DNA from: Microglena sp. YARC
Lineage: Eukaryota > Chlorophyta > Chlorophyceae > Chlamydomonadales > Chlamydomonadaceae
Direction: 5' to 3'
DNA: 64,000 nt
Assembly: GCA_022414725.1 (NCBI GenBank)
Contig: CM039464.1
Coordinates: 51,068,921 to 51,132,920, forward strand
Numbering within the stretch: the stretch's first letter is position 1; each line of letters starts with the position of its first letter. The notes below the pieces were generated by a model. It was given only the letters and a program-made list of their open reading frames with translations. It searched no databases and was not told the DNA's origin. Shown piece after piece: positions 6,185-37,095 of this stretch. The position numbers and the translations under genes were made by a program.

Positions 6185-6444
6185 TCCCCCTCAGCCAAAC
6201 TGGATTCCAAAGGCGAGGACAGAGGAGAGCAAGGCTGCTGCTGCTGCCCATGCTTCAATAGGGTTTTGACTCATCCGACACTAACATTAACACACACCCA
6301 GCCAGCAATTTGAAGACAGTCCCCATGCACCCAGTTTAGGGGTAGCCCACTTACCCAATACTTCAACCATTCAAACCCAACCCCACAACCTGGACCTCCC
6401 TCAGCCAGAATCGGATTCGCAAGGTGAGGAAGGAGGAGAGCCAG

Positions 6445-6478
<34 letters not shown>

Positions 6479-6997
6479 CTGACTCAGGGGATCCTCTGCC
6501 CTTGCTGCAGCTGCAAATGCTGAAATAAACCACCCTCTCGTTCAAACCCAACCCCACAACTGACAAACCCAATCTTGGACCCCCCCCTCAGCCAGAACTG
6601 GATTCCCAAGGCTAGGAAGGAGGAGAACAAGGCTGCTGCAGCTGCTGCTGCCAATGCTGAAGTATACCACCCTCCCTTTCAAACCCACCCCCACAACTGA
6701 CAAAGCCAGTCTTGGACCAGCCAAAACCGGATTCGCAAGAGGTGAACAACGCTGCTGCCACTGCCCATGCTTGTGCAGTGCAGTGCAGAGCGCAGCTCCC
6801 TCATGGTACATACCATTCTGAAAAGGCAATCCCTCAACCATCCAAATCCAACCCCCTCGACCATCCAAATCCTACCCCTCCACCATCCAAATCCTACCCC
6901 TCCACCATCTAAACTCCTCTACCATCCAAATCCAACCCCCAACAATCCAAACCCAACAACCCCACACCTGACCAACCCAATCTTGGACCCCCCTCAG
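6185..6997 (+). repeat. Array of four partial copies of exon E1's 5' edge
   Basis: Copies begin right after CAG at 6195, 6405, 6592 and 6721, and the E1 copy itself at 6998. Each carries CCARAACTGGATTC-type sequence and an alanine-coding GCTGCTG run of varying length. The spacer CCCAACCCCACAACTGACAAACC is shared. All copies lie upstream of E1 and each keeps an AG acceptor. They vary in length by indels, so alternative use could change the protein. Confidence 0.75.
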
Positions 6998-7151
6998 CCA
7001 GAACTGGATCCGCAAGGCTAGGAAGGAGGAGAACAAGGCTGCTGCTGCCTCAGGGAACCCTCTCTCAACTGATCCATCCAATGCAACTGCCACTCACTTC
7101 TCAACTGGGCGGCCCATGCGCGCACGTCGTCCTCCTACAGAGGCCATGAAG
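6998..7151 (+). CDS. GTPBP1/2-like GTPase, candidate exon E1
   Basis: The exon starts after CCCTCAG and reads QNWIRKARKEENKAAAAS, continues through a Ser/Thr-rich stretch and ends RPPTEAMK at AAG|GTGCTG. The phase is 0 into E2. It would form part of the N-terminal region before the first conserved GTPBP block, a poorly conserved part of the family. It is supported by position, open frame, and the same 5'-edge/3'-edge amplification seen at secure exons. The donor GTGCTG is weak, so the boundary is uncertain. The exon with the start codon was not found upstream. Confidence 0.5.
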
Positions 7152-7959
7152 GTGCTGAATTTGAATTTGAATTTGAATATTAAATGTTCATTGTAGTGGT
7201 CGGCTCATGCGTGCACGTCGTCTTCCTACAGAGGCTATGATTGTGCTGAATTTGAATTTGAATTTGAAGTGTATATTGTAGTGGGCGGCCCATGCGCGTA
7301 CGTCGTCCTCCTGGAGGCCTTGAAGGTGCTGAATTTGAATTTGAATTTCAAATGTATATTGACCTTGCTTTGTATAAAAAAACTGATAAATTCAAACTAT
7401 TCATTTATTTTTGAAGTTTAGGTGCTGAAGAAGGCTCGGGACCCCAACCTAGCCTGTGTGTCTGCTGAATCATTCCAAAATACTCTTTTTCGAAACATAG
7501 GTGCTGAATCATTTAATACAATTCTCACTTGATTTCTCAATATATTATTACATAAATGCACGTATCCAGACTATTTATTTTGATTAAACCCCCCCCCCCC
7601 CCCCCCCCCCCCCCCGGAGTATAGGTGCTGAAGGAGCCTTGGGACCCCAGCCCTTGCTTGTGTGGCTGCTGAATCTTTTTCCAACTTTCTTTTTTTCGGA
7701 AAACAGGTGCTGAATCATTCAATACATTTTATTTTTGAAACGTAGGTGCTGAAGGAGCCTCGGGACCCCAACCTAGCCTGTGTTGCAGCTGAATCTCGTG
7801 ATGGCACTGTTGAGCATAATATATCAAGACATAAATACATATGCATTCAAACTATTCATTTTCCCCAAGTATAGGTGCTGAAGGAGCCTTCAGACCCCAA
7901 CCTAGCCTGTGTGGCTGCTGAATCCCCCCCCCCCCCCCCTCCCCCTCCCCGATGTATAG
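7152..7959 (+). repeat. Intron 1: copies of E1 3' edge, then of E2 5' edge
   Basis: Two further copies of the E1 end (GGCTCATGCG or GGCCCATGCG through GTGCTGAATTTGAATTTG) occupy about 7200-7260 and 7284-7350. Six partial copies of E2's start then follow an AG at 7422, 7501, 7625, 7707, 7746 and 7875. They share GTGCTGAAGGAGCC and GACCCCAACCTAGCC but stop before the conserved exon core. Poly-C runs lie at 7589 and 7926. Confidence 0.85.
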
Positions 7960-8134
7960 GTTCTGAAGGAGCCTCGGGACCCCAACCTTGCTTGTGTGGC
8001 TGCTGAATCTCATGATGGCAATGTTGAGTACAAGCTCCAGATCCAGCCGCCCAATGCCGCTCGTTTCCAGCAGCTCACAACACAGATGAACTTCCGCTTG
8101 TCTGAGGGGAATGGGGAGTGCTACTATGCTGTTG
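7960..8134 (+). CDS. GTPBP1/2-like GTPase, exon E2
   Basis: The exon has 58 codons plus one base, from TATAG|GTTCTGAAG to GTTG|GTGAGT. It encodes VLKEPRDPNLACVAAES and then DGNVEYKLQIQPPN, FQQLTTQMNFRL and SEGNGECYYAV. The block EYKL...P...R...L.TQM.(W/F)RL.EG.GE..Y is diagnostic for the region just N-terminal to the GTPase domain of GTPBP1 and GTPBP2. These are EF-Tu/eEF1A-like translational GTPases linked in animals to mRNA decay and ribosome rescue. The phase-1 end predicts a V/G codon at the next junction, as in the family. Confidence 0.85.
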
Positions 8135-11100
8135 GTGAGTGTGTTGGGGGGGGGGTATGGAGTGGTGGGGGGGGGGGGGGGTAGGTAGTGTGTGTGTGGG
8201 GGGGTAGGGGGCGGTAGGGCAAGGCTGACAACACAGATGAACTTCCGCTTGTCTGAGGGGAATGGGGAGTGCTACTATGCTGTTGGTGAGTGTGTGTGTG
8301 GGGGGGGTAGGGGGCGGTAGGGCAAGGCTGACAACACAGATGAACTTCCGCTTGTCTGAGGGGAATGGGGAGTGCTACTATGCTGTTGGTGAGTGTGTGT
8401 GGGGGGGGGTAGGTAGTGTGTGTGGGGGGGGGGTAGGGGGCGGTAGGGCAAGGCTGACAAACAGATGACTTCCGCTTGTCTGAGGGGAATGGGGGAGTGC
8501 TACTATGCGTTGGTGAGTGTGTGTGTGGGGGGGTAGGTAGTGTGTGTGTGGGGGGGTAGGGGGGCGGTAGGGCAAGGCTGACAACACAGATGAACTTCCG
8601 CTTGTCTGAGGGGAATGGGGAGTGCTACTATGCTGTTGGTGAGTGTGTGTGTGGGGGGGTAGGTAGTGTGTGTGTGGGGGGGTAGGGGGCGGTAGGGCAA
8701 GGCTGACAACACAGATGAACTTCCGCTTGTCTGAGGGGAATGGGGAGTGCTACTACGCTGTCGGTGAGTGGGGGTAGGGGGTGGTATGGAGTAGGTGGTA
8801 AAGGGCTGTAAGGGGTAGGGGGTCGTAGGGGCTAGGGATCTGCAGGCGCATGGTGGTGGTGTCGTTAGGGCAATGCTCACGACACTGATGAACTTCGGCT
8901 TGTCTGAGGTGAAATGGGGAGTGCTACTACGCTGTTGGTGAGTGGGGGCTAGGGGGTATAGGAAGGGGGGGTGGGTAGGGGTAGGGGGGGTTGGGAAAGG
9001 CTGACAACACAGATGAACTTCCGTTTGTCTGAGGGAATGGGGAGGTGCTACTACGCTGTTGGTGAGTGGGGCTGAAATAGGGGGTATAGGAACCGGGGGG
9101 GTGGGTAGGGGGTAGGGGGGTTGGAAAAGGCTGACAACACAGATGAACTTCCGTTTGTCTGAGGGGAATGGGGCAGTGCTACTACGCTGTTGGTGAGTGG
9201 GGCTAGGGGGTATAGGAAGGGGGGTGGGTAGGGGGTAGGGGGGGTTGGGAAAGGCTGACAACACAGATGAACTTCCGTTTGTCTGAGGTGAATGGGGAGT
9301 GCTACTACGTTGTTGGTGAGTGGGGCTAGGGGGTATAGGAAGGGGGGGTGGGTAGGAGGTAGGGGGGGTTGGAAAGGCTGACAACACAGATGAACTTCCG
9401 TTTGTCTGAGGGGAATGGGGAGTGCTACTACGCTGTCAGTGAGTGGGGGTGGGGGGGTAGGTGGCGGTAGGGGGTGGTATGGAGTAGGTGGTAAGGAGTG
9501 GTAGGGGGCCGTATGGGCTACGGTTCTGTAGGCTCATGTCGGTACTGTAGTTAGGGCAATGCTCACGACACAGATGAACTTCCGCTTGTCTAAGGGGAAT
9601 GGGGAGTGCTGCTATGCTGTTGGTGAGTGGGGCTAGGGGGTAGGGGGCGGTAGGGGGTAGGGGGTGGTATGGAGAAGGTGGTAAGGGGCGGTAGGGGGGT
9701 AGGGGGCCGTAGGGGCTAGGGATCTGGCAAGGCACATGGTGTTGTTGTCGTTAAGGCAAGGCTGACAACACAAATGAACTTCTGCTTGTCAGAGGGCAAT
9801 AGGGAGTGCTACTACGCTGTTGGTGAGTGTGGCTAGGGGATAGGGTGGTGGTGGTATGGAGTAGGCGCTAAGGGGCGGTATGGGGTAGGGGTCCGTAGGG
9901 GTAGGGGGCGGTATGGAGTAGCTGGTAAGGGGTCCGAAGGGGCTAGGGGTCTGCAGGCGCATGGTGGTGTTGTAGATAGGGCAATGCTCACGACACAGAT
10001 GAACTTCCGTTTGTCTGAGGAAAATGGGGAGTGCTACTACGCGGGGGGGGGGGGGGGGTAGGTAGTGTGTGTGTGGGGGGGTAGGGGGGGGTACGGGGCA
10101 AGGCTGACAACACAGATGAACTTCGCTTGTCCTGAGGGGATGGGGGAGTGCTACTATGCTGTTGGTGAGGTGGTGTGTGTGGGGGGTAGGGGCGGTAGGG
10201 GCAAGGCTGACAACACAGATGAACTTCCGCTTGTCTGAGGGGAATGGGGAGTGCTACTATGCTGTTGGTGTGAGTGTGTGTGGGGGGGGGGTAGGTAGTG
10301 TGTGTGTGGGGGGGGTAGGGGGCGGTAAGGGCAAGGCTGACAACACAGATGAACTTCCGCTTGTCTGAGGGGAATGGGGAGTGCTACTATGCTGTTGGTG
10401 AGTGTGTGTGTGGGGGGTAGGTAGTGTGTGTGTGGGGGGGTAGGGGGCGGTAGGGCAAGGCTGACAACACAGATGAACTTCCGCTTGTCTGAGGGGAGGG
10501 GAATGGGGAGTGCTACTATCCGCTTGTTGGTGGAGTGTGTGTGTGGGGGGTAGGTAGTGTGTGTGTGGGGGGTAGGGGGCGGTAGGGCAAGGCTGACAAC
10601 ACAGATGAACTTCCGCTTGTCTGAGGGGAAATGGGGAGTGCTACTACGCTGTTGTCGGTGAGTGGGGGTAGGGGTGGTATGGAGTAGGTGGTAAAGGGCT
10701 GTAAGGGGTAGGGGGTCGTAGGGGCTAGGGATCTGCAGGCGCATGGTGGTGGTGTCGTTAGGCGCAATGCTCACTGACACTGATGAACTTCGGCTTTGTC
10801 TGAGGTGAATGGGGAGTGCTACTACGCTGTTGGTGAGTGGGGCTAGGGGGTATAGGAAGGGGGGGTGGGTAGGGGGTGGGGGGGTTTGGGAAAGGCTGAC
10901 AACACAGATGAACCTTCCGTTTGTCTGAGGGGAATGGGGAGTGCTACTACGCTTGTTGGTGAGTGGGGGCTGAGGGGGTATAGGAGGGGGGTGGGTAAGG
11001 GGGTAGGGGGGGTTGGGAAAGGCTGACAAACACAGATGAACTTCCGTTTGTCTGAGGTGAACTGGGGAGTGCTACTCCACGCTGTTGGGTGAGTGGGGCT

Positions 11101-12090
11101 AGGGGGTATAGGAAGGGGGGTGGGTAGGGGGTAGGGGGGGTTGGGAAAGGCTGACAACAACAGATGAACTTCCGTTTGTCTGAGGTGAATGGGGAGTGCT
11201 ACTACGCTGTTGGTGAGTGGGGCTAGGGGGTATATGGAAGGGGGGGTGGGTAGGGGGTAGGGGGGTTGGGAAAGGCTGACAACACAGATGAAACTTCCGT
11301 TTGTCTGAGGGAATGGGGTGTGCTACTACGCTGTCAGTGAGTGGGGGTGGGGGGTAGGTGGGCGGTAGGGGGTGGTATGGAGTAGGTGGTAAGGAGTGGT
11401 AGGGGGGCCGTATGGGCTACGGTTCTGTAGGCTCATGTCGGTACTCCGGTAGTTAGGGGCAATGCTCACGACACAGATGAACTTCCGCTTGTCTAAGGGG
11501 AATGGGGAGTGCTGCTATGCTGTTGGTGAGTGGCGGCTGGGGGTAGGGGGCGGTAGGGGGTAGGGGGTGGTATGGAGAAGGTGGTAAGGGGGCGGTAGGG
11601 GGGTAGGGGGCGTAGGGGCTAGGGATCTGCAGGCACATGGTGTTGTTGTCGTTAAGGCAAGGCTGACAACACAAATGAAACTTCTGCTTGTCAGAGGGCA
11701 AATAGGGAGTGCTACTACGCTGTTGGTGAGTGTGGCTAGGGGATAGGGTGGTGGTGGTATGGAGTAGGCGCGCTAAGGGGCGGTATGGGGTAGGGGTCCG
11801 TAGGGGTAGGGGGCGGTATGGAGTAGCCCCCTGGGTAAGGGGTCCCGAAGGGGCTAGGGGTTCTGCAGGCGCATGGTGGTGTTGTAGATAGGGCAATGCT
11901 CTACGACACAGATGAACTTCCGTTTGTCTGAGGAAAAATGGGAGTGCTACTACGCTGTTTGGTGAGTGGGGCTAAGAGGGTATGGGGTGTGGTGTGTGGG
12001 GGGGTAGGGGGCGGTAGGTCAAGGCTGAAAAACACAGATGAACTTCTGCTTGTCTGAGGGGAATGGGGAGTGCGACTACGCCGATGGTGA
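8135..12090 (+). repeat. Intron 2 array: about 27 copies of E2 3' edge plus donor
   Basis: Units of about 100-190 bp each carry ACAACACAGATGAACTTC, TGTCTGAGGGGAATGG, GTGCTACTA and then GTTGGTGAGTG. Each is therefore the last 60 or so bases of E2 and its GTGAG donor, followed by a G-rich spacer. Every unit also has ACACAG before ATGAAC, a possible acceptor, so each could act as a 40-50-base cassette exon. Spacers fall into subfamilies (GTGTGGGGGGGTAGG; GGCTAGGGGGTATAGG; GGTGGTATGGAGTAGG). Confidence 0.9.
10041..11960 (+). repeat. Second copy of a 1.9-kb block (first copy about 8160-10040)
   Basis: The order of spacer subfamilies in 8160-10040 repeats in 10041-11960 with an offset near 1890 bases. 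For example, the CTGCAGGCGCATGGTGG landmark at about 8841 recurs at about 10733, and GTTCTGTAGGCTCATGTCGG at about 9522 recurs near 11422. The second copy differs mainly by single-base insertions and deletions. That is more like uncorrected long-read sequence than a diverged duplicate. Confidence 0.7.
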
Positions 12091-12343: not shown

Positions 12344-12450
12344 TGTCGGAAGACGACGGTTACCCGGGGATTGGAGGAGGAGCAGTTAGAGAGATCCTTG
12401 GAAAGTCTCAAGAGCCTCCATGGCACAGCTCTCTCACTGCTCATGTGGGG
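12344..12450 (+). pseudogene. GTPase gene, partial copy A of exon E3
   Basis: After (CA)n and CAG the frame reads VSEDDGYP, then shifts by one base to RGLEEEQLERSLESLKSLHG. This matches the family block following E2 (VEDNG...GL.E.E...SL..L). It then diverges and stops at TAG. It could be a decayed upstream copy of E3's 5' edge or a true exon carrying an assembly indel. Confidence 0.6.
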
Positions 12451-14454: not shown

Positions 14455-14925
14455 CGTTGAAAGTGGCACATACAAGTGGCACGCATTCATCCCATCACCC
14501 ACCCACCTCTCCTCCCACTCCCGCCTCCTGCTCCCCACTCCCTCCCCACTCCTCCCCTCCCCCACTGTCTCCCCTAGTTGCGGGCAGCGCTGACCACAGT
14601 GGCCAAGAGCGGGCATTGGTTGCCGTCTCTCTCCCCCCCCCTTCCCCCCCCCCCCCCCCCTTGTGTCCAACTCAGTTCATCCACCCATCCCATCCCCCCA
14701 CCTGCCCCCCCCCCCCTCTCTCCCCCCCCCCCCCCCCCCCCCCAGTTGCGGGCAGCGCTGAAAGTGGCAAGAGCACATTGGTGGCCGTCCCCCCGCCCTC
14801 CCCCCCCCACCGTGATCCACTCAGTTCTATCCCATCCCATTTCATCCCATCCCATCCCCCCCCCTCCCCCCCCCCAGTTGCGGCAGCGCTGAAAGTGGCA
14901 AGAGCACAATTGGTGGCCGTCCTCG
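14455..14925 (+). repeat. Four upstream copies of the P-loop exon's 5' edge
   Basis: Copies follow CAG or TAG at 14455 (degenerate), 14578 (degenerate), 14746 and 14878. The copy at 14746 is intact and, with a leading G, reads VAGSAESGKSTLVAV. This is a perfect G1 motif (GxxxxGKST). Spacers are almost pure C with CATCCCATCC blocks. All are upstream of the longest copy at 15038. Confidence 0.85.
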
Positions 14926-15037: not shown

Positions 15038-15264
15038 TTGCGGGCCAGCGTTGAAAGTGGCCGAAGAAGAGCACATTGGTGGCCGTCCTCTCTCAGGGTT
15101 CTGACGGTCGGGCCCCAGCTGGACTTGTGGTCATGGAGTGCCCGTATGGGCTATCCTGAGGCACAAGCCACATGGAGGTTGAGAGTGGCCGCACCAGTTC
15201 GATATCGCAGCAGGTGTTGGGATACGACAGCGATGGACGAGTGCTGAACTATGCTGGCGTATCA
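15038..15264 (+). CDS. GTPase gene, exon E4: P-loop to switch I, frame-disrupted
   Basis: The exon follows CCCCCAG. It holds the G1 region (AGCGTTGAAAGTGGC...AGCACATTGGTGGCC), a segment corresponding to GELDNGRG.AR...RHKHE scattered over frames, then in one frame EVESGRTSSISQQVLGYDSDGRVLNYAGVS. The SGRTSSIS block is the family's switch I (G2) signature. Several single-base indels (GGGCCAGCG, GGCCGAAGAAGAG) break the frame. A copy of the 3' edge lies at 15385-15467 with donor TCAG|GTAGGG. The protein identity is certain; an intact frame is not visible here. Confidence 0.7.
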
Positions 15265-15384
15265 GTAGGGTCACTAATGCTTTGTACCACACACACACAC
15301 ACACACAATATAAAGTTACCACACAACATACAGTCACCCTCCCACACACACGCCCCCCCCCCCCCCCCCCCCCCCCCCCCTTTT

Positions 15385-15467
15385 GGTGGACACACCAGTT
15401 CGATATCAGAGCAGGGTGTTGGGATACGACAGTGATGGACGAGTGCTGAACTGTGCTGGTGTCTCAG
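15385..15467 (+). repeat. Copy of E4 3' edge with donor
   Basis: CACACCAGTTCGATATC, TGTTGGGATACGAC and GAGTGCTGAACT repeat the end of E4, including GATGGACGAGTG, and finish at GTCTCAG|GTAGGG. It lies downstream of E4, beyond a CA run and a poly-C run. Confidence 0.8.
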
Positions 15468-15589
15468 GTAGGGGCACCATGCTGTGTGCAGCCCCCCCAC
15501 CCACCCACCCACCCCGCCCCTGTGCCTTCTCAGATATCTTCCAAGGCCTAACCGCTCAATGCTCCACCACCCCCACCTAACTACCGCCC

Positions 15590-16192
15590 CCGTGCGCAGC
15601 CCTCCTCCTCCCCCCCTCCACCTCCACCTCACCTCCCCCTCCTCCTCCCCTCCACCCTCCCCTCCCCCTCCACTCCACCCCCCCTCCCCCTCCTCCTGCC
15701 CTCCCCTACCTTAGCACTTGCATCCATCCTGTCCGCAGTCCTCCCCCTCCCCCCCTCCCTCCTTCCCCCCCTCCTCCCCTTTCTCCTCCCCTTTCTCCTC
15801 CCCCTCCCCCTTCACTCCCCCTCCCCCCTCCCCCTCCCCTCCCCTCCACTCCACTCCACTCCACCACCGCACTTGCATCCTCCCGCCTCTGCAGTCCAAC
15901 CACCACCAACCACCACCACCTCACCCCTTGCATCCTCCCGCCTCTGCAGCCCCCACCACCACCACCACCACCACCTAACCCCTTTCATCCTCCCGCTCTC
16001 TGCAGCCCCACCACACCACCACCACCACCTAACCCTTGCATCCTCCGCCTCTGCAGCCCACCACCACCACCACCTAATCCCTTGCATCCTCCCGCCTCTG
16101 CAGCCACCACCACCACCACCTAATCCCTTGCATCCTCCGCCTCTGCAGCCCACCACCACCACCACCTAACCCCTTGCATCCTCCCCCTGCAG
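15590..16192 (+). repeat. C-rich and (CCACCA)n array carrying E5 acceptor copies
   Basis: First comes CCTCCCCCTCC-type sequence. From about 15870 there are units of about 50 bases, TTGCATCCTCCCGCCTCTGCAGCCC followed by a CCA run. The CTGCAGCCC core equals the acceptor and first bases of E5 (CAG|CCCTCATG). Six or seven copies lie upstream of E5. Confidence 0.7.
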
Positions 16193-16420
16193 CCCTTATG
16201 CCCCTCTGAGATATCTTCCAAGGCCTCCAAGCTGGCTCACCTCCATATGCATGGGCACCACACACACACACAAAACACAGACACACTGTTTGTGTTTACA
16301 CCTTGTCCCCCACTCCCCCTCCACCCCACCCCTAATCACCCCACAGCCCTCATGCCCTCTGAGATATCTTCCAAGGCCTCCAAGCTGCTTACCCTCATTG
16401 ACATGCACACCACACACAAG
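16193..16420 (+). repeat. Two upstream copies of exon E5
   Basis: Copies after AG at 16193 and 16347 read, with a leading G, ALMPSEISSKASKLLTLIDM (the second copy is clean). This corresponds to the family block EICESSSKMITFIDL before the G3 motif. Both then run into CACACC sequence rather than the DxxGHE codons. A shorter fragment (ATATCTTCCAAGGCC) lies at 15533. Confidence 0.8.
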
Positions 16421-16478: not shown

Positions 16479-16552
16479 CCCTCATGCCTCTCTGAGATAT
16501 CCTTCACAGGCCTCCAAGCCTGCTTACTTCATTGACATGGGCGGCCCATGAG
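16479..16552 (+). CDS. GTPase gene, exon E5 with G3 motif, indel-bearing
   Basis: This is the only E5 copy that continues to the G3 (switch II) codons. TTCATTGACATGGGCGGCC...CATGAG reads FIDMGG then, past one extra C, HE before GTGGGT. DMGGHE fits the DxxGHE motif of GTPBP1 (DLAGHE), and E6 continues RYLKTT as expected. Relative to the clean copy at 16347 it has four or so single-base indels. A copy of its 3' edge (GGCCATGAGGTGGGTGAGGCAT) lies at 16681-16702. Confidence 0.7.
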
Positions 16553-16852
16553 GTGGGTGAGGCATGGAGGACATCCGGGTGGGGTGGGGGATATTGTGGT
16601 GGGTATGGGCGGGGTGGTGTGGTATAGGGGACGTCGGGGCGGGCGGGCGGGAGGGAGGGGAGGGGAGGGCATGTTTGGTCGGCCATGAGGTGGGTGAGGC
16701 ATAGAGGACATCGTGGGCAGGGGTGGGTGGGTGTGTGTGTGTGGGGGGGGGGGGGGGGCATGATATATCAGCATCCATAAATATTATCATCTGTTGTGCC
16801 GCAGTGGGTAGGACCAATTCCAATCCTTAACCCCCCATGGCCCCGTACAAGG

Positions 16853-17247
16853 TTTTCTTTCTTTTTTCAATTTTATTGTTACATGTTTTTTAGGCAACTC
16901 TGGGCTGCTCACCAGGGTGTGTTACAGCACACACGCAAGACACACACGAGCTTGGCCACCCACACACAGTCACGCACAGTCACGCACAGTCACACACGGT
17001 CACACAGTCACACACAGTCACGCACGGTCACACACAGTCACGCCCTACGGGTCAGGGCGGTACGCGGTCGCACTCAGGGTTGTTCAGTATACTGCAGTGG
17101 GTAGGACCAATTATAATACTTTAGCACCCCATGGCCCCACTGAAGTTTGTCAGCAAAGCAAGACGCAAGCGTTCTGAACAACCCTGGTGAGCAGCCCAGA
17201 GTTGCCTAAAAACATGTAACAATCAAATTGAAAGAAGAAAAAAAACT
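16853..17247. mobile_element. Inverted-repeat element in intron 5
   Basis: The arm 16875-16918 (ATTGTTACATGTTTTTTAGG...CTCACCAGGGT) is repeated inverted at 17181-17224 with almost no mismatch. Weaker T/A-rich inverted homology extends both arms outward. The 260-bp interior has CACACAGTCACGC repeats. The block GCAGTGGGTAGGACCAATT is also directly duplicated (16801 and 17095). It looks like a foldback/MITE-like insertion. Confidence 0.6.
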
Positions 17248-17356
17248 TGAGGAGGATATGTTGTGTCGCAGGCGTGTGTGAAATAAAAAACTCACAAAAA
17301 TTTGATCATTCAATTTTTCAAAAGCTTTAAATTTTCACTGTGTGAACTTCTAACAG

Positions 17357-18050
17357 AGAGACCTGAAGACCACGCTATAAGGCATTCGGCTCTGCTGCCA
17401 ACATTTAAAAATCCTCAAAATTCACTAACTCTCAAAAAAAAAATTTTTTTTTTTTTTTTTTTAGTTTTACAATTTCCTCCGTGTGTCTCCCGTTGTGGTC
17501 TTCTGTGTGTTGCTGAGGTACCTGAAGACCACCCTACATGGCATGACGGCTCTGCTGCCCAACTACACCTTGCTGTGTGTGTGTGCATCGACCGGCTTGG
17601 GGCACATGAGCAGGGAACACCTAGCCGTGGCTGCAACTAAAAAAACAAAAACTTAAAAAAAAAGGGATTTTCAAAAGTTTCACAATTTTCCTTATGTGTC
17701 TTCTCGCAGAGGAACCTGAAGACCACCCTATATGGCATGACAGCTCTGCTGCCCGCATTTTAAATCCTCACAAATTCAAAACTCTCAGAAAATCGAAACT
17801 CTCAAAAATGCTATTTAAAAAAAAAAAAAAAAAAAATCGCTTGTGTACCTTCTCGTTGAGGTACCTGAAGACCACTCTATATGGCATGACGGCTCTGCTG
17901 CCAACATTTAAAATCCTCACAAATTCAAAACTCTACAAAAATCAAAACTCTAAAAAAATAAATTTCCAAATTTTCCTTATGTGTCTTCTCGTAGAGGTAC
18001 CTGAAGACCACCCTATGTGGCATGGCGGCTCTGTTGCCAAAAATTCAATT
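17357..18050 (+). repeat. Five upstream copies of E6 5' edge
   Basis: Copies of AGGTACCTGAAGACCACCCTATATGG-type sequence start at 17357, 17515, 17710, 17859 and 17995. They are 50 bases long, except the second, which runs about 120 bases into CATGAGCAGGGAACACC. Spacers are A/T-rich (TTTAAAATCCTCACAAATTC). Three keep an AG acceptor; those at 17515 and 17859 have TG instead. Confidence 0.85.
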
Positions 18051-18131: not shown

Positions 18132-18740
18132 AGGTACCTGAAGACCACCCTATATGGCATGACGGCTCTGCTGCCCGACTACACCTTGCTGTGTGTGTGT
18201 GCATCGACCGGCTTGGGGCATATGAGCAGGGAACACCTAGCCGTGGCTGTCGCATTAGAGATCCCTGTTGCTATCGTCATTACGAAATGCGACAACGTTG
18301 CTGCAGAGCAGATCGAGTCTGTGGTTCAGCAGGTTCAGGAGCTGATGGCCCTAGCTGTCCAGGGGTACATACATGAGGAGCATGATCAGCTGAAGCAAGA
18401 GCAGCAGGAGCTACAGCAGCAGGAGCAACAGGAACAACAGCAGCAACAGCAGCAACAGCAACAACAACAGCAACAGCAACAACAAGAGAAACAGCAGCAA
18501 CACCTACAGCAGCAGGAGCAGCAGCAACACGAGGAGCAGCAGCAGGGGCAGCAACACCACCAGCAGCAGCGGCAGCGGCAAGGTGCAATACTGATAACAA
18601 CTGAGGAGGAGGCAGCATCTTGTGCAAAGGAGCTGCTCATGTTGGCTGTAGGGGGCGCTGGACTGGGGGCATCCCCACAACAGCCCCAGCAACGTTTTCC
18701 TATATTCTTGACTTCTTCTGTGTCTGGAGAGGGACTACCG
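18132..18740 (+). CDS. GTPBP1/2-like GTPase, exon E6 (G4 and G5, Q-rich insert)
   Basis: The exon has 203 codons, from TTGCAG|AGGTACCTG to CTACCG|GTAAGA, phase 0 at both ends. It starts RYLKTTLYGMTALLPDY, directly continuing DMGGHE, then STGLGHMSREHLAVAVAL and IPVAIVITKCDN. The last holds the G4 motif TKCD, where GTPBP1 has TKID. A Gln-rich insert of about 60 residues with LQQQ/EQQ runs follows (about 18390-18580). The exon ends FPIFLTSSVSGEGLP, matching the family's PIF..SSVSGE.LD (G5 region). This is the most secure exon for naming the protein. The insert lies where GTPBPs have a variable loop and may be tolerated. Confidence 0.95.
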
Positions 18741-21345: not shown

Positions 21346-22125
21346 GCAGTCTGGCTAGGTTAAAGTTGCCATATGTATACAATATCATGTGATGCAACTT
21401 GTATGGTATTGTAAGAGAGGGAGGGGGATACCGGTGGGAGGGGCTTGTGCGGAGAGAACGGCAGTATGATATCATACTGGCAGATATGATATGATGATGA
21501 TATTGATGATGATGATGATGATGATGATGATGCCGGCAGCCTGGCTAGGCTAAAGTTACCATCTATATACAATATCATATGATGCAGTTTGTCAATATCA
21601 TAAGAGAGAGGGACTACCGATGAGGGGGGCTTGTGCGGAGAGAATGGCAGTATGATATCATACACACAGAAATGATATGATGATGGTAATGATGCCGGCA
21701 GTCTGGCTAGGCTAAAGTTACCATTTATATACCATATCACATGATCGTGCAGTTTGTATGATATCACTAGAGAGGAAGTGGCTATCAGTGAGAGGGGCTT
21801 ATGTGTAGGGAACGGCAATATGATATCATACCGGGTGATATGATGATGATGATGCCGGCAGTCTGGCTATGCTAAAGTTACCATCTATATACAATATCAT
21901 ATGATGCAGTTTGTACAATGTCATAAGAGAGGAAGGGGCTATTGGTGAGAGGGGCTTATGAGTAAGGAACAGCAATATGATATCATACCGGGTGATATGA
22001 TGATGATGATGATGATGCCGGCAGTCTGGCTATGCTAAAGTTACCATCTATATACAATATCATATGATGCAGTTTGTTCAATATCATAATAGAGGAAGGG
22101 GCTATTGGTGAGAGGGGCTTGTGTA
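21346..22125 (+). repeat. Five units of about 150-190 bp carrying E6 3' edge/donor
   Basis: Each unit has GATGCCGGCAGTCTGGCTAG, TAAAGTTACCAT, CAATATCATATGATGCA, then AGAGAGGGACTACCGRTGAG and GGGGCTTGTG. The last part repeats the end of E6 and its donor region (GAGAGGGACTACCG|GTAAGAGGGGCTTGTG). The ATCATATGATG block is also found near 30.8, 39.4 and 56.3 kb. Confidence 0.75.
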
Positions 22126-22150
22126 TTTGTGTGTGTGTGGCTGTGTGTGA

Positions 22151-24610: not shown

Positions 24611-25501
24611 GTTCTGCATGCCTTCCTCAGCTCGCTCTATCCAGACAAGCAACGGTCTCCATACCCTCCCTCATCTGACAAAACCGTCAAGACCTCCTCC
24701 TCCCCTCCCCCTGAGGAATCCACTGTTGGCCCTAGCTATCACCCAATCCTACAATCCAGCCAGCAACGGGACTACCCTGTTGGCCCTGGCTATCACCCAG
24801 CCCTTCAAGCCAGCCAGCAACGTGTAGGACCAGAGATGGAGGAATCAACTGCTGGATCAACAGATCCTTGCATTAGCCCAGATCCCAGATCACCAGATCC
24901 TTGCATTAGCCCAGATCTCAGATCACCAGATCCTTGCATTAGCCCAGATATCAGATCACCAGATCCTTGCATTAGCCCAGATCCCAGATCAGCAGATCCT
25001 TGCATTAGCCCAGATCCCAGATCAGCAGATCCTTGCATTAGACCAGATCCCAGATCAGCAGATCCTTGCATTAGCCCACATCCCAGATCTGTAGACCCTT
25101 GCATTAGCCCACATCCCAGATCTGCAGGCATGCCCAGAGCTCAAAGGCCAGGATCGGCAGATCTTTCTAGTGCCTCTGGGCCAGGATCAGCAGATATCGG
25201 TGCCCCCAAGCCAGGATCGGCAGATCTTTCTAGTGCCCCCAGGCTTGGATCAGCAGATATCAGTGCCCCCAAGCCAGGATCGGCAGATCTTTCCAGTGCC
25301 CCCAGGCTTGGATCAGCAGATATCAGTGCCCCCAAGCCAGGATCAGCAGATCTGTCCAGTGACCCTGAACCAGAATCGGAAGACTTGGGCAGGGCGTTGA
25401 GAGTAGGGTCAGCGGGGAGCTTGCAATCGGTGCTGGGGCCGACCTCGGAGATGCAAGGCCACGCCAGAAGGGCCCTGGACACAGCCCCCGTTCATTTTCA
25501 G
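24611..25501 (+). CDS. GTPBP1/2-like GTPase, exon E7 (linker with tandem peptide repeats)
   Basis: The exon has 297 codons, phase 0 at both ends. It begins VLHAFLSSLYPDKQR, continuing the family's SGESLDLLKVFLNILPPL across the E6/E7 junction. A low-complexity insertion follows. About nine 11-residue repeats of the type SPDPCISPDPR (33-bp DNA unit, 24865-25130) come first, then 21-residue repeats with GSADLSSAPRL/GSADISAPKP (25140-25370). It ends TAPVHFQ before GTCAGT, in the place of the family's LTEFQ. So a 250-residue insertion separates the G domain from domain II. Such repeats are usually disordered; I infer no function. Confidence 0.85.
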
Positions 25502-26260
25502 GTCAGTTTCATGGTCAGTTTCAGGTCAGATTCATGTTCAGTTTCAGGTCAGATTCATGGTCAGTTTCAAGTCAGATTCATGGTCAGTTTCAGGTCAGAT
25601 TTGGGGTCAATTTCATGATCAGTTTCAGGTCAGTTTCGGGGTCAGTGTCATGATCAGTTTCAGGTCAGTTTCAGGTCAGGGTCAGGGTCAATTTTAAGGT
25701 CAGTTTCAGGGTCAATTTCATGGTCATGTTCGGGTCAGTTTCAGGTCAGGGTCAGGGTCAATTTTAAGGTCAGTTTCAGGGTCAGTTTCATGGTCAATTT
25801 CATGGTCATGTTCGGGTCAGTTTCAGGTCAATTTTAGGGTCAGTTTCGGGTCAGTTATAAGTTCAGTTTCGGGTCAGTTTCAGGGTCAGTATTTTGTTCA
25901 TTTTCAGGTCATTTTCAGGTCAATTTCAGGTTCAGTTTCAGGGTCTATTTCAGGGCCAGGTTCAGGATCAGGTTCAGGGCCAACCTCAAAATTGCAAGGC
26001 CAGACCAGAAGGGCCCTGGGCACAGCCCCCTTTCATTTTCAGGTCAGTTTCGGGGTCGGTTATGGGGCCAGTTGCAGGTCAGGCCTGGACACAGCCCCGT
26101 TTATTTTCAGGTCGGTTCAGGGTCAGTTTCAGGGTCAGGTCGGTTTTCAGGTTTCGGGTTTCAGGTCAGTTTCAGGGTCAGGTCGGTTTTCAGGTCAGTT
26201 TCAGGGTCAGGTCGGTTTCAGGGTCAGGTCGGTTTCGGGGTCAGTTTCAAGTTAGTTGAC
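25502..26260 (+). repeat. Intron 7: TTTCAG|GTCAGTTTC array from E7 3' edge
   Basis: Units of 12-24 bases repeat the last bases of E7 plus donor. Longer copies of the exon end (GCAAGGCCAGACCAGAAGGG... CATTTTCAG|GTCAG) lie at 25995-26045, with a shorter one at 26085-26115. Each unit again abuts CAG with GTCAG. Confidence 0.9.
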
Positions 26261-26508: not shown

Positions 26509-26714
26509 CCTATCTCCCCCACACCCCTTTACACCGACCCCTCACCCCCAGGTGGACCAAACCTATCAACAAACCTATCTTACCACACACATACACACAC
26601 ATACACACTCACACACGCACTCACACACACACAAATCCACATGCACACACATACACACACAAACCCACACACACACATACACACATAAACCCTTACACAA
26701 AACCCTACCCACAG
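26430..26714 (+). repeat. (CA)n and one upstream copy of E8 5' edge
   Basis: CACACA-rich sequence surrounds a copy at 26552 (CAG|GTGGACCAAACCTATCAAC). The true E8 follows at 26715 after a second CA-rich stretch. Confidence 0.85.
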
Positions 26715-26775
26715 GTGGACCAAACTTATCAACTGGAGGGAGTTGGATCTGTTGTGTCGGGTATTGTGGTTCAAG
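26715..26775 (+). CDS. GTPBP1/2-like GTPase, exon E8 (start of domain II)
   Basis: The exon has 20 codons plus one base, CCACAG|GTGGAC to CAAG|GTAGGG. It reads VDQTYQLEGVGSVVSGIVVQ, matching VDEIYTVPEVGTVVGGTLSSG of GTPBP2 and VPGVGTVVSGT of GTPBP1. This is the first strands of the EF-Tu-like domain II. Phase 1 joins correctly to E9. Two downstream copies of its end (GGTATTGTGGTTCAAGGTAG) lie near 26873 and 26983. Confidence 0.95.
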
Positions 26776-27260
26776 GTAGGGATTGTCCGATTGTCCACCT
26801 GCGTGTTGTCATCTGAAAGTTGGGTCAAAGTTTGAATTTGAGTTTGAATTTGAGTTTAAATTTTGTCTGCGGTATTGTGGTTCAAGGTAGGGATTGTCCA
26901 ATTGTCCACCTGCGTGTTGTCATCTAAAAGTTGGGTCAAAGTTTGAATTTGAGTTTGGATTTGAGTTAAAATTTTGTCTGCGGTATTGTGGTTCAAGGTA
27001 GGGATTGTCCAATTGTCAGCCTGCTTGTTGTCATCTGAAAGTTGGGTCAAAGTTTGAATTTGAGTTTGAATTGTCAGCCTGCTTGTTGTCATCTGAAGTT
27101 TATCTGGTTTGAACTTTAGTTTGTGCTGAGTCTGTATTTGAATTTGAAATGCGCGGAAGTTTCATTCCATCGGCCATGCGGTGGAAGGCCTAACTTTGTC
27201 AGCCTGCTTGTTCCCTCCACCACACCCTCCACCACACCCTCCACCACACCCTCATCCCAG
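26776..27260 (+). repeat. Intron 8: about 115-bp units with E8 3' edge/donor
   Basis: TGCGGTATTGTGGTTCAAGG, TAGGGATTGTCCAATTGTC and GTTGTCATCTGAAAGTTGGG repeat about three times, followed by TTTGAATTTGAG runs. CCACCACACCCT repeats precede the E9 acceptor. Confidence 0.85.
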
Positions 27261-27404: not shown

Positions 27405-27762
27405 TGACTTGACTTGACTTGACTTGACTTGACTTGACTTGACTTGACTTGACTTGACTTGACTTGACTTGACTTGACCTGACTCGACTTGACTTGACTT
27501 GACTTGGCTTGACTTGACCTGACTCGACTTGACTTGGCTTGGCTTGACTTGACTAGACTTGACTTGACTTGACTTGACTTGACTTGTACCTGCCAGGTAC
27601 GTACTCTCACAGGTCCCACATTTTCGTACTGCCTCACACCTGCCTCACACGTCTACTCACAGGTCCCACATTTCCGTACTGCCTCACACCTGCCTCACAC
27701 GTCTACTCACAGGTCCCACATTTTCATACTGCCTCACACCTGCCTCACACGTCTACTCACAG
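27405..27762 (+). repeat. (TTGAC)n, then three exact-period copies of E10 5' edge
   Basis: TTGAC pentamers fill 27405-27588. Copies of CACAG|GTCCCACATTTYCGTAC then start at 27613, 27663 and 27713, and E10 itself at 27763. That is exactly a 50-base period, with spacer TGCCTCACACCTGCCTCACA. The duplication is nearly perfect and looks recent. Confidence 0.95.
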
Positions 27763-29331
27763 GTCCCACATTTCCGTACGCCGAGTATTTGCTGGTCACA
27801 CTGCCACCCTGGCGCTTCAACCGGTTGGCCCTGACAGAGCCTTAGGTGCAATGGGAACCTCCATTTCAGCCCCCTCTGTGGCCCCCCTTTTATCCAACGC
27901 CCCCCTTGGCCCCAGGAACCCCCTGCAGCAACAACTGCAGCTGTTCGAGGAGGCTCAAGGCAGAGGGGGGGCTGTGGACAAGGCAGCATGGTCTGCCCCC
28001 TCTCAATCTATGCTCATGTCCGACAAAGCTAAGGGCTACTTCAAGGGAGCAGGCTACACCTGCCCCCTTGGGCCTGGACAAGTGGGGAGCCTGGGGCAAG
28101 AGGGGGAGCCTGGACAAGAGGGGGGCCTGGGAAAAGACGGGGGCCTAGGACAGAGGGGGCCTGCAGGGAGGGCTGTCCATGCTTATTGTGAGCTTAGGGT
28201 AGAACCTAGTGAGCCCCTGGAGGCAACTCAATTGTCCACGCACCTGCCCCCCTTGGGCCTGGGACAAGAGGGGGGCCTGGGACATGAAGGGGGCCTGAAG
28301 GGAGGGCTAGTGGAGGCAACTCACTTGTCTACGCACAGTTCACTGAGGAAGAAAGAAAGGGGGGCCCAAGCCAAGGGGGGCCAACCAGCGAAGGGGGGGG
28401 CTCGCGATGCTTTCGATGGTTTCTTTGGCCTTGGTGACGATGATGAGGAAGAAGCGGGCGCTGGTACTTTCCACCTGGGCGGTTTCGGAGCTTTGGGTGG
28501 TGAGCTCGATGATAAGGACAGCTTATGTGGCTTTGGATCCCTGGGCAGGGGCTCCGGAACCTTGGATGATGCTTTCGGTGGTTTCGGAGCTCTTGATGAG
28601 GATCAGAAGCCCTCACGCTCACTCTTGGGTGGGAGTGACCCGATGGACATGATCGATGGATGCCTGTCTGACTTCGGAGCCAAGTCGGTTCCATCCACCC
28701 ACGTTGGGTTCCCACGGGAACACAGAGCAGCTAGCTCCGTGGATCTGACCAGAGGGGGCGGCGGGGGGGGCCCAGCCCACAGCCTGGACCCTCCTCCCCT
28801 TGTGCAGGCCCTAGCTAGTCCCTGGCTACCCACCATCCACCCTCAGGGCTTCTCTCAAGCCCACCATCCACCCAGCCAGGACAGAGATGAAGATGGAGAC
28901 TGCCCCCACTCCACCTTGTCCACACAACCCTTATCCAAGGCCCCCCCCTTTCCCTCCCTGCCTCCCCCCCGCTCCTCCCCACCCAGCCAGGACGGAGATG
29001 AAGATGGAGACTGTCCCCCTCCACCTTGTCCACACAACCCTTGTCCAAGGCCCCCCCTTTCCCGCCCTCCCTCCCCCCTGCTCCTCCCACCAAGCAGGAC
29101 GGAGATGAAGATGGAGACTGTCCCCCCTCCACCTTGTCTACACAACCCTTGTCTCGCAAACAACGCCGTCAACTTAGAGATCAGGAACAAGAGGAGCTCG
29201 AGCAGGAGCTAGCTGGCTTGGGCATCAAATTGCGGCGGCCTGAGAAGTGCCCGGGGCCACTGGGAACAAAGGCAGAGCGTAAAGATCAGAGGCAGCAGCA
29301 GCAACAGCAGCGCCAGTCTGCTCGCACAAAG
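27763..29331 (+). CDS. GTPBP1/2-like GTPase, exon E10 (domain II end plus long acidic/Gly insert)
   Basis: It starts with the codon split from E9 and reads RSHISVRRVFAGHTATLALQ, matching NRSACRVLRAGQAATLAL. A long insertion follows: Gly/Pro-rich, then FGLGDDDEEEAGAG and two or three GGFGALDE-type repeats. After that come three 97-base tandem copies coding DEDGDCPPSTLSTQPLS. The end is basic and Gln-rich (LSRKQRRQLRDQEQEELEQEL; KAERKDQRQQQQQQR) to AAAG|GTGGGC. The second 97-base copy has five C at 29025-29029 where the third has six. That single missing C is enough to break the frame and explains why the exon length is one base short for phase 0 into E11. It is probably an error. Confidence 0.85.
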
Positions 29332-30465
29332 GTGGGCGATGGGTTGTGTGGGTGTGTAGGGGGGGGGGGGGGGGGTATTTTGTTTTTTGAGTGGCTTGGT
29401 TTGGGTGGCTTGGGAGGTTGGCTTATTCCGGGGACAAGGGGAACAAAGGTAGAGCGTAAAGATCAGAGGCAGCAGCAGCAGCAACAGCGCCATGCTGCTC
29501 CGCACTGAGGTGGGTGATGGGGTTGTGGTGTGTGGGGGGTATTTTGTTTTTTGGGTGCCTTGGGTGGTTGGCTTGGCCCTGGGACAAGGGAACATAGGTA
29601 CAGCGTAAATATCAGAGCAGCAGCAGCAAACAACAGCGCCATGCTGCTCGCACTAAGGTGGTGATTGGGTATGTGTGTGTGTGGGGGGGGGTATTTTATT
29701 TGTGGGGTGGCTTGGTTGGGTGGCTTTGGGTGGTTAACTTGGCCCGGGCTACTGGGAACAAAGGCAGAGCGTAAAGACCAGAGGCAGCAGCAGCAACAAC
29801 AGCGCCATGCTGCTCGCACTATGGTGGGGGAGGGGTGTGTGTAGGTGTGGGTGTGTGAGTGGAGGGAGGGGTATTTTGTTTTTTGGGTGGTTTGTAGGGG
29901 GCGGCAAATATATCTATATTGCCAAAAAATATAGATCTATATAGATCTATATAGATCAAATATATCTATTGTGTATATCTATAACATATGCAGTTATATC
30001 AGATAGACACCGGAAAATCCAGTCGTCGCGCCTGCAATATGCTATGGTGCCCTATGCCATAATTGTAAAACCAGATATTGATTTTTGTAAGGTGCCCTAT
30101 GCCGATTTTCAAAAATCCAGCTTCGCCAATATATATATAATATCTATCTCTATATAGATCGATGCCTCTCCCTAGTGGTTTGGGTGGTTGGCTTGGCCCT
30201 GGGACAAGGGGAACAAAGGCAGAGCGTAAAGATCAGAGGCAGCAGCAAGCAACAACAGCGCCATGCTGCCACCCACTAGGTGGGTGATGGGTTGGGGGTG
30301 TGTGTGTGGGGGGGGGGATGTCGCTTGGATAGCTGTTTGGGTGGTTGGCTTGGCCCTGGAACACGTGGAACAAAGGCAGAGTGTAAAGATCAGAGGCAGC
30401 AGCAGCAACAACAACAACGCCATGCTGCTCGCACTGAGGTGGGTGATGGGGTTGTGTGTGTATGG
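29332..30465 (+). repeat. Intron 10: five copies of E10 3' edge with donor
   Basis: GGAACAAAGGCAGAGCGTAA, AGATCAGAGGCAGCAGCAGC and GCTCGCACTGAGGTGGGTGATG recur at about 29440-29515, 29585-29665, 29755-29835, 30205-30290 and 30368-30450. Each has a GTGGG(T)GATGG donor copy and a following G-run. An AT-rich TATATAGATC patch with no gene interrupts at 29900-30165. Confidence 0.9.
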
Positions 30466-33046: not shown

Positions 33047-33495
33047 GTGCTGTACTGCTGGATGCAGCCACCTGCCCTGCAGCGTTCTGGGAGTTTGAAG
33101 CGGCCTTGGTCCTCTTAGGGGGTCACTGGCCAGCTAGAGGGCTCATATCTGGGCGCTGGCCCCCTTGCCAGGACGAGCCACGCAGGCCTCCTACTCCGAA
33201 ACCAGCATCGGAGTCTGTCCACCCTGTCAGCAATGGGTGCAACCAGTCCAGCACTGCAACCGATACTGAGCTGGCGAGCATAGCAACCGATGCTGAGCTG
33301 GCAAGCACCTCTGCTGACACCTCAAGCCTCTCAAGTCTCAGCAGCAGTGAGGGGGTGCCGGAAGAGGAGGGCAGCGTGATGAGGGCGGTGGGTGGAGGCA
33401 AGGGCGTGGTGAGCAAGAAGGCGATGAACCTCGAGTTCAGTGTCGTCATCCATTGTGGTTGTGTGCGACAGCCTGCTAAGGTGGTGTCTATGCAG
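33047..33495 (+). CDS. GTPBP1/2-like GTPase, exon E12 (domain III)
   Basis: 449 bases, phase 1 in and phase 0 out, CACAG|GTGCTGTAC to ATGCAG|GTGGGT. GAVLLDAATCPAAFWEFEA and LVLLGGHWP match the family's VMVSP...P..WEFEAEILVL. A Ser/Thr-rich insert of about 90 residues follows (TATDTELASIATDAELAS). Then comes NLEFSVVIHCGCVRQPAKVV, matching QVTVHVGNVRQTAVV. One downstream copy of its end lies at 33592-33675, with a stop within the copied frame. Confidence 0.95.
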
Positions 33496-33591: not shown

Positions 33592-33715
33592 AAGAAGGTG
33601 GTGAACCTGGATTTCAGTGACGTCATCCAATGTGGCTGTGTGCGACAGCCTGCTTAGGTGGTGTCTACGCAGGTGGGTTAAGGGCCTTGAGGCCCTCCTC
33701 CTTACACACACACCA
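33592..33715 (+). repeat. Downstream copy of E12 3' edge with donor
   Basis: Repeats AAGAAGGTGGTGAACCTGG (from AAGAAGGCGATGAACCTCG), TGTGTGCGACAGCCTGCT and the GCAGGTGGGT donor with following GGCCTTGAGGCCC. TAAG replaces AAG in the copy, creating an in-frame TAG. Confidence 0.9.
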
Positions 33716-34496: not shown

Positions 34497-34529
<33 letters not shown>

Positions 34530-35664: not shown

Positions 35665-35852
35665 GAGCTTCCAGATGGCGTTTCCATGTCGCGCATCTCC
35701 AGGGCTAACTCAAATGTCGACCCTAGCTGTACTGCTGCTGTTGATGACACCCTGTCATGCAGCATCAGAGCTGCTGCAGCAATCCTTCACTCTGGAGCTG
35801 ATGGGAAGCTGGGGGGGGAGGGCCTGGGCACTGTCGCACAGCTCAAACTGAG
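35665..35852 (+). CDS. GTPBP1/2-like GTPase, exon E13
   Basis: 62 codons plus two bases, GACAG|GAGCTTCC to CTGAG|GTAGGT. It reads ELPDGVSMSRISRANSN, a poorly conserved stretch, then GLGTVAQLKL(R). That corresponds to the family's LRTGEKAVVRFRF in domain III. Two downstream copies of its end (GGGCACTGTCACACAGCTCA, AACTGAGGTGGGTGG) lie near 35915-35960 and 36020-36065. The phase matches E14. Confidence 0.9.
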
Positions 35853-36130
35853 GTAGGTGGAGTGCATTGCTTGAAGGGGGGGCAGGGAGGGGGAGGAGCT
35901 GAGGGCAAGCTGTAGGATGGGGGCCTGGGTACTGTGATGCAGCTCAAATTAAGGTGGGTGGAGTTTCATTGCTTGAAGGGTGGGCGGGAGGAGGAGGAGC
36001 TGAGGGCAAGCTGGAAAGGGGGGAGCTGGGCACTGTCACACAGCTCAAACTGAGGTGGGTGGAGTTCATGGTTTAAAGGGGGGGGGGGGGGGGGGGGGGG
36101 GAGGAGGGAAAATGCCATCCTCATCATCAA
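35853..36130 (+). repeat. Intron 13: two copies of E13 3' edge with donor
   Basis: Units of 110-120 bases repeat from GGGCCTGGG through GCTCAAACTGAG|GTGGGTGGAG and CATTGCTTGAAGGG. A long G-run follows at 36079. 36130-36674 holds a short copy of the GTCCAGGGGTAGGCC element (36205-36265) and GGTGTGGTG-rich sequence. Confidence 0.85.
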
Positions 36131-36674
36131 TATCTGGCTATTGGAGCTGGATGGAAGCTACTATGCATAGCCCAGAAAGGGACAATGCACATGTATGCTA
36201 CAGTCCAGGGGTAGGCCAAATAGGCTCAAGGGACTTGCCCAACCGTGACAGGAGGGGCTTCAAACGAAAAAGCACTTAGGAACTGATCCTCAAACCAGTG
36301 AGTTGTTATTGGATGTAGTGGGTTGTATTTGGATGTCGGCAATGCAAGGGATCACAGAAAACAATGGTTGGGGAGGAGGAGGAGGGGCTGAAGGAGGGTG
36401 GTGGTGCCGTAGGTGTGTGTAGTGGTGTGGTGTTGGTGGGTGGGGGGGCTGGTGGTGGGGTGTGTGTTAGGGTGAGGGTGAGGGTGGCCCAATGCGGATG
36501 CCTTCTACGCACTCTCTGGCAGGAAGGCATCCGCGTTGACTGGGTGGGGAGGAGGAGGAGAGGTTAAATGCATGTTAGGGTGCTTGCGTGTTAGGGTGCT
36601 TGCGTGTAGTCAGAAAACCTGCACTCCACCTTGCTGGCATGCCTTTACTCCCCTGCCACTGACCCCCAATTCAG

Positions 36675-36789
36675 GTTTGTGAGTCGACCTGAGTGGCTGA
36701 AGGAGGGGTCACGTCTCATCGTTAGGGATCTGGCCAACGGACATGTGGCTGGTGCGGGCTTTGTCATGAGCACCGCAGCAAAGCACTAG
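36675..36789 (+). CDS. GTPBP1/2-like GTPase, last exon E14
   Basis: 37 codons and TAG after TTCAG. FVSRPEWLKEGSRLIVRD and NGHVAGAGFVMSTAAKH match the C-terminus FRFLKHPEYLKVGAKLLFREGVTKGIGHV. The protein ends close to where the conserved domain ends, without the C-terminal tail of animal GTPBP1. The stop is followed by tandem copies of the exon end. Confidence 0.95.
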
Positions 36790-36799
36790 CTGTCTTCTG

Positions 36800-37095
36800 G
36801 TCTCATTGTTAGGGATCTAGCCAACGGACATGTGGCTGGTGCGGGCTTTGTCATGAGCACCGCAGCCAAGCACTAGCTGTCTCCTGGTCTCCTCGTTAGG
36901 GATCTGGCCAACGGACATGTGGCTGGTGCGGGCTTTGTCATGAGCACCGCAGCCAAGCACTAGCTGTCTTCTGGTCTCTTTTCAAGGGATCTAGCCAACA
37001 AACGTGTGCCTGGCGCGGGCTTTGTCATGAGCACCGCAGCCAAGCACTAGCTGCCTCTGGTCTCATTTCAAGGGATCTAGCCAACAGACAGTTGT
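36800..37095 (+). repeat. Three and a half 85-bp copies of E14's 3' end
   Basis: Units repeat GTTAGGGATCTAGCCAACGG through GCCAAGCACTAGCTGTC with high identity, at about 36810, 36895 and 36980, plus a fragment at 37070. Each contains the stop codon. An alternative acceptor in a copy would still give a similar C-terminus. Confidence 0.95.

Follow-up and report, generated by a model that had tools for sequence, protein, structure and literature searches.

How does an intron come to consist of copies of the edges of the very exons that it separates? The question is posed by a 64,000-nucleotide stretch of the genome of Microglena sp. YARC (C3:51,068,921-51,132,920; assembly of 568 Mb in 2,390 contigs), referred to below as the window. 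Its plus strand carries a gene for a GTPBP1/2-like GTPase, whose best named protein relatives are mostly from chlorophytes; arrays of period at least 10 occupy 52% of this gene and 39% of the window as a whole. An earlier inspection of the letters by a model, here called the sequence-only reading, had described introns enlarged by tandem copies of exon edges and had ascribed them to a process centred on splice junctions. The first part is borne out: tandem duplication across exon–intron borders has enlarged introns at most borders of the gene. The second is not: the arrays are very probably minisatellites, formed when genomic DNA was duplicated in tandem and then filtered by selection, with no machinery that seeks out junctions.

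The gene model used here has a probable first coding exon at 2547-2654, upstream of the range covered by the sequence-only reading, followed by 14 exons, E1–E6 and E8–E15, whose numbering may be offset from that used previously. The edges of these exons were searched for on both strands of the whole window with 40-base probes that span the junction (24 bases of exon and 16 of intron; some edges are off by 1-5 bases). Copies of the 5′ edge lie upstream of their exon in 8 of 14 instances and downstream in none (0/14); copies of the 3′ edge lie downstream in 11 of 13 (the 3′ edge of E3 is outside this set) and upstream in none (0/13). Copy numbers run from one to the 26 found downstream of E2 (Table 1). 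These probes returned a single minus-strand match, at the 3′ edge of E14, and reversed probes, which served as the null, returned 0 matches. A second set of probes, the 40 bases immediately within the approximate exon edges, gives upstream copies at 7/14 and downstream copies at 0/14 of the 5′ edges, and downstream copies at 8/14 of the 3′ edges; the one upstream copy of a 3′ edge is that of E5, an exon so short that its edges overlap. With this set there was one weak minus-strand match, within a CAG run, and again no null match.

The polarity that had been claimed, with 5′-edge copies only upstream and 3′-edge copies only downstream, therefore stands. The claim that all splice junctions are amplified has to be narrowed to most borders (19/27): no copy of E3 or E10 was scored with either window probe set, the 5′ edges of E13, E14 and E15 likewise have none, and E12 has one weak 5′ match, with the inside-edge probes only. 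A diverged E3-like stretch at ~12345-12440, upstream of E3, can be seen by eye and lies under the probe threshold. The copies are also local. When positions 6185-8185 were compared with the genome, 28 of the 48 matches listed were at their own locus (the query itself included), 3 were at a paralogue on C4, and the remaining 17 had E values of 3e-7 or weaker.

The same organization is found elsewhere in the genome. Edges were examined at 15 chaperonin (CCT) loci and at the C4 paralogue (L009), using 56 of the 64 CCT profile matches (intronless, unplaced and unretrieved ones were excluded). Splice sites were placed by a simple score; exons shorter than 60 bp and edges without a convincing AG or GT were set aside, and terminal exons were kept. 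Intron-side copies occur at 37 of these 108 edges: 19/56 5′ edges have upstream copies (one has a downstream copy) and 18/52 3′ edges have downstream copies (one has an upstream copy), with no minus-strand copy among the 108 edges and no null match. Only 2 edges have copies on the wrong side; a copy-exon at L010 9662, counted as an exon, contributes one right-side match at each edge and one of the 2 wrong-side matches. Without the paralogue the counts are 17/50 for 5′ and 13/46 for 3′ edges, and edge copies are present at 9 of the 15 CCT loci but absent at L015, L018, L019, L020, L023 and L024. Junction-spanning probes at the CCT loci (terminal donors dropped, the L010 9662 copy-exon kept) give, over all probes, 18/50 and 14/42, with one wrong-side match each. 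Profile matches taken by themselves (all 64 for CCT; 114 of 128 for kinesin, 14 intronless ones being excluded; 21 of 25 for adaptin) yield 14 overlapping pairs. Ten are unambiguous parent–copy pairs, all on the expected side and the same strand; 2 share both ends, and 2 were classed as copy versus copy since a longer parent adjoins, although as parent plus copy they would break the rule.

Details of the copies were obtained from 60 arrays with 205 copies, a set that includes seven window exons and also kinesin loci; the latter, six in number, were picked partly for visible overlapping matches and were used for anatomy only, not for rates (the kinesin locus L035 has no array). The exon part of the repeated unit is 25-180 bp deep, and is constant or takes few values inside most arrays. 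Homology continues beyond the exon into the intron flank, where it exceeds all 20 shuffles for 86/106 copies of 5′ edges and 84/97 copies of 3′ edges (30/33 and 22/26 edges, respectively). An AG stands at the exact site in 85/106 5′ copies and a GT in 82/97 3′ copies. In a comparison with arbitrary pairs of bases in the copy, retention was 0.802 for AG (0.806 expected) and 0.828 for GT (0.834 expected); with no more than this difference, the decoy sites seem to be neither kept nor purged. Fixed differences between parent and copy are heavy in third codon positions (0.032/0.026/0.109 at the three positions), whereas differences between copies are spread more evenly (0.114/0.106/0.148; the reading frame of window E1 is set off in these counts, which adds slight noise). 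By this pattern the exon is constrained and its copies, which are nearly neutral, hardly so. Copies have a median divergence from their exon of ~10% per array. Duplication of a whole exon was considered and has no clear case among the 205 copies, the sole flagged one having been measured from the copy-exon at L010 9662.

Such arrays very probably result from geometry and selection together. When genomic DNA is duplicated in tandem between a breakpoint within an exon and a second one in the adjoining non-coding DNA – perhaps by slippage, microhomology-mediated repair or unequal exchange – an exon/non-coding unit is created, and further expansion of this unit would make a minisatellite. Tandem duplications are common throughout the sampled non-coding DNA, and exon edges would be caught in proportion. 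Where the unit lies across a border, splicing would use only the copy attached to the exon body, and the remaining copies would become intron or 3′ untranslated region; the opposite outcome, or a duplication within the exon, would break the protein and be purged. With selection acting as the filter, introns would ratchet outward. Polarity, orientation and the partial nature of the copies would all be expected because only intron-side copies leave the coding sequence intact, and we infer that geometry and purifying selection suffice for the polarity.

This model predicts spared exon interiors, partial copies and arrays at stop codons. Spared interiors and partial copies are both observed. A stop-codon array is evident in the window, where the edge of the E15 array (3 copies) is the stop codon, a coding border without a splice junction that is amplified just as splice edges are. 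Among 10 CCT gene ends, copies lie close to a sound stop at one, L023; they are suggested at three, namely L016 (one copy, with an around-stop probe) and L020 and L022 (copies, but doubtful ends); and they are absent at the other 6/10. These counts are bounded by L014, with no stop within 300 bases, and by L013 and L018, with less than 180 bases of room.

The process proposed by the sequence-only reading – repair of R-loops or of replication breaks at exon–intron borders, by which splice junctions are duplicated preferentially – has two observations on its side: the 19/27 affected borders of the window gene lie above the 32/92 obtained with like probes in CCT genes, and edges lie slightly over the one-sided intron rate (see below). 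Comparison with controls makes it improbable nonetheless. Control 40-mers of ordinary complexity, not exon-like, were scored as copied when a further match on the same strand lay within their locus. Among intronic 40-mers 108/304 had a copy (76 upstream, 74 downstream), as did 66/268 from five random loci; edges, at 37/108, are thus not above introns (P = 0.91, Fisher). Junction-spanning probes (27/86) likewise are not above introns (118/304, P = 0.26), nor clearly above the one-sided intron rate (81/304, P = 0.41, odds ratio 1.25) or random loci (72/268, P = 0.41). Low-complexity 40-mers, which had copies in 97/141 intronic and 73/112 random instances and many null matches, were excluded, as were exon-like ones (47 from the intronic control, and from the junction-spanning control also). 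Exon interiors are depleted of copies (17/163, P = 2e-9 versus introns). Arrays identified with Tandem Repeats Finder cover 40% of CCT introns, 6% of CCT exons and 34% of the random loci, the last figure resting on only five loci that range from 8% to 71%; in the second half of the window 68/235 complex probes, from overlapping tiles, have a copy. There is no clear sign of a process aimed at junctions, and the amplification of the E15 stop codon, with that of some CCT gene ends (soundly at L023), speaks against one.

Several observations weigh against the view that duplication is indifferent to junctions and that its products are neutral. Edges are higher than the one-sided intron rate of 75/304 (P = 0.06) and than the random loci (P = 0.07), and there may be a mild excess at edges, with an odds ratio of ~1.6; the rate sample is small, consisting of one gene family and one paralogue. 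Opposite-strand copies, rare in CCT introns (7/291) and random loci (2/268), are not rare at 38.7-64 kb of the window (16/235 probes). By a cruder measure of the flank (at least 8 of 12 intron bases) only 52/106 5′ copies and 67/99 3′ copies qualify. Between copies, third positions differ slightly more often than the others (P = 0.004), which could indicate weak constraint or copies re-derived from the exon at different times, and copies belonging to one array are non-independent.

Noisy long reads, wrongly joined, might also produce apparent copies, and at E2 they probably have. The 3′-edge copies of E2 lie in two near-duplicate blocks that differ by 16 mismatches and 70 indel runs, with 67 extra bases in the second and 27 in the first; the second is suspect because this profile of differences is that of raw long reads. 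The block at 10046-~11960 is probably an assembly error (a false duplication or a fill with raw reads), such that the array of about 27 copies in the sequence-only reading, although present in the assembly, may contain some 14 real ones. Frame changes in the P-loop exon (15038-15265) could have the same source, the gene having either decayed there or been mis-sequenced. As a general explanation, however, assembly error is very unlikely: like arrays, with the same polarity and near-constant units, are present at independent loci (the C4 paralogue and 9/15 CCT loci), the ~10% by which copies typically differ from their exon is not expected of read noise, and one edge copy figures as an additional exon in P0004, an annotated protein that seems to come from this species. 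We give equally little credence to the idea that the copies are functional, whether as alternative exons or as decoy splice sites under selection. Most copies do keep their AG or GT, and the third-position excess between copies would suit some constraint; yet the retention is that of any two bases, no clear copy of a whole exon with both splice sites exists, and paralogues have arrays at partly different edges. Least credible of all, to the point of being nearly negligible, is RNA-mediated copying, also raised by the sequence-only reading, in which complementary DNA or template switching inserts exon ends into introns. The copies are indeed exon ends and lie near the gene, but most carry the adjoining intron flank and the AG or GT site, their spacing is tandem, and the minus strand holds no copy of any of the 108 edges.

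Tandem duplication with selection has known parallels. Sections of two reports on amphioxus (PMC3087553, PMC3902484) describe ‘mirage’ minisatellites in Adh3, the globins BflGb6 and BflGb9, TnC and PGBD5: tandem duplications across intron–exon boundaries, at 5′ and 3′ edges, with units of 10-160 bp, in which AG/GT is kept in many, not all, copies and for which reverse transcription–polymerase chain reaction (RT-PCR) suggested regular splicing. The present arrays are alike in all three respects: the unit lies across the boundary, both types of boundary are affected, and AG/GT is found in many but not all copies. The mirages thus precede the present case, for which the sequence-only reading knew of no description, although in those sections cephalochordate genes are reported one at a time, together with RT-PCR and length differences between haplotypes. 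In the present case the genome is an unrelated, green-alga-like one known from the sequence of a single assembly; about a third of the sampled CCT and paralogue edges are affected, as are 19/27 in one gene, and a stop codon is included. In the potato RdRp gene, according to the part of the report consulted (PMC4974935), a single duplication across an intron–exon boundary created an intron. The likeness is a boundary-crossing tandem duplication that leaves intronic copies of exon sequence; the difference is that a new intron appeared there, whereas here existing introns grow: the 5′ side of an intron holds copies from the exon before it, and the 3′ side copies from the exon after it. Nor do the copies follow the pattern of intron gain by AGGT tandem duplication, which would put a copy of the downstream exon's start at the head of the intron and a copy of the upstream exon's end at its tail; the order in the window gene is the opposite one (5′-edge copies downstream 0/14, 3′-edge copies upstream 0/13). 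Intronic minisatellites, or variable number tandem repeats, are head-to-tail arrays of imperfect copies with near-constant units; the unit here differs in that part of it is coding and that it contains a splice site. Edge copies are not described in the sections consulted of PMC10400597, PMC6330051, PMC11228838 and PMC11247165, and no description in algae was found within the open-licence literature searched. As far as those searches tell, what is new is the lineage and the apparent scale, the kind of structure being already known.

The C4 paralogue has arrays of its own, partly at the same borders as those of the window gene and with a different unit depth. Paralogous CCT genes (L010/L014, L016/L017) have arrays at partly different edges, and because of this we think that arrays probably come and go. 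The EukProt model P0004 and the paralogue's parent exons agree at 96-100%; in P0004, residues 71-105 and 105-138 both match L009 7027-6923, a 5′-edge copy having been included as an extra exon. Gene annotation can evidently be misled by edge copies, and annotators should also bear in mind that such arrays can be doubled in long-read assemblies. The sequence GGHE|R is interrupted in the window gene by the intron at 16553-18131 and uninterrupted in the paralogue (L009 2943-2743, minus strand). For this E5–E6 intron without a counterpart in the paralogue, an AGGT-type gain was considered; it may represent a gain or a loss.

Should the scale hold genome-wide, tandem duplication filtered by selection would be a concrete route to intron lengthening, and the species would provide natural experiments in number, with nearly identical decoys next to real splice sites. 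We suggest, tentatively and with rather less than even confidence, that introns of this lineage lengthen mainly by a one-way ratchet, in which tandem duplication across the genome goes on supplying junction-spanning copies that can survive solely on the intron side, with up to a dozen or so near-identical decoy donors or acceptors per intron fully tolerated by splicing and neither kept nor purged; if true, this would supply a natural test of exon definition versus intron definition.

Table 1. Exons of the window gene and the edge copies assigned to them (window positions).
Feature	Position	Strand	Remarks
Exon E1	6998..7151	+	edges inferred; frame open from acceptor to donor
Exon E2	7960..8134	+	84% identity to P0004 across 57 residues
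Exon E4 (P-loop exon)	15038..15265	+	compared with relatives, one stretch is shifted and a stop stands in frame
Exon E5	16479..16552	+	edges inferred, from sequence and probes
Exon E6	18132..18740	+	
Exon E8	24611..25501	+	edges inferred
Exon E9	26715..26775	+	edges inferred
Exon E11	27763..29331	+	edges inferred
Exon E13	33047..33495	+	
Exon E15 (last exon)	36675..36789	+	with stop codon
5′-edge copies of E1, n=3	6173..6625	+	junction-spanning probes
E1 3′ edge and 2 downstream copies	7106..7361	+	unit ~91 bp; junction-spanning probes
5′-edge copies of E2, n=4	7413..7920	+	both probe sets
3′-edge copies of E2, first block, n=13	8248..10045	+	block ~8170-10045
3′-edge copies of E2, 14 further	10046..12090	+	13 inside near-duplicate block to ~11960, plus one more
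5′-edge copies of E4, n=2	14735..14920	+	junction-spanning probes
3′-edge copy of E4, n=1	15429..15470	+	both probe sets
5′-edge copies of E5, n=2	16188..16410	+	both probe sets
3′-edge copy of E5, n=1	16676..16710	+	junction-spanning probes
5′-edge copies of E6, n=5	17349..18040	+	both probe sets
3′-edge copies of E6, n=3	21420..22130	+	junction-spanning probes
Acceptor and 5′-edge copies of E8, n=10	23125..24515	+	CCCTCA-rich array; junction-spanning probes
3′-edge copies of E8, n=5	25536..26125	+	three weak, in TCAG-rich array; junction-spanning probes
5′-edge copy of E9, n=1	26539..26580	+	junction-spanning probes
3′-edge copies of E9, n=2	26863..27015	+	unit 111 bp; junction-spanning probes
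5′-edge copies of E11, n=3	27599..27740	+	unit 50 bp; junction-spanning probes
3′-edge copies of E11, n=5	29470..30455	+	junction-spanning probes
3′-edge copy of E13, n=1	33632..33690	+	both probe sets
3′-edge copies of E14, n=2	35931..36072	+	junction-spanning probes
E15 end copies including stop codon, n=3	36838..37067	+	unit 87 bp; both probe sets

Three further observations were made in passing. The kinesin profile has 14 weak matches elsewhere in the genome (on C505, C1592, C2346, C846, C552 and others), each one uninterrupted stretch; they span roughly one common part of the profile and perhaps represent a multicopy element. Within the window, positions 3412-4499, 5′ of most of the GTPase gene, hold an 11-base unit in ~97 copies. 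On the minus strand, 1105-1425 is an open frame that resembles a ubiquitin–ribosomal protein S27a fusion.

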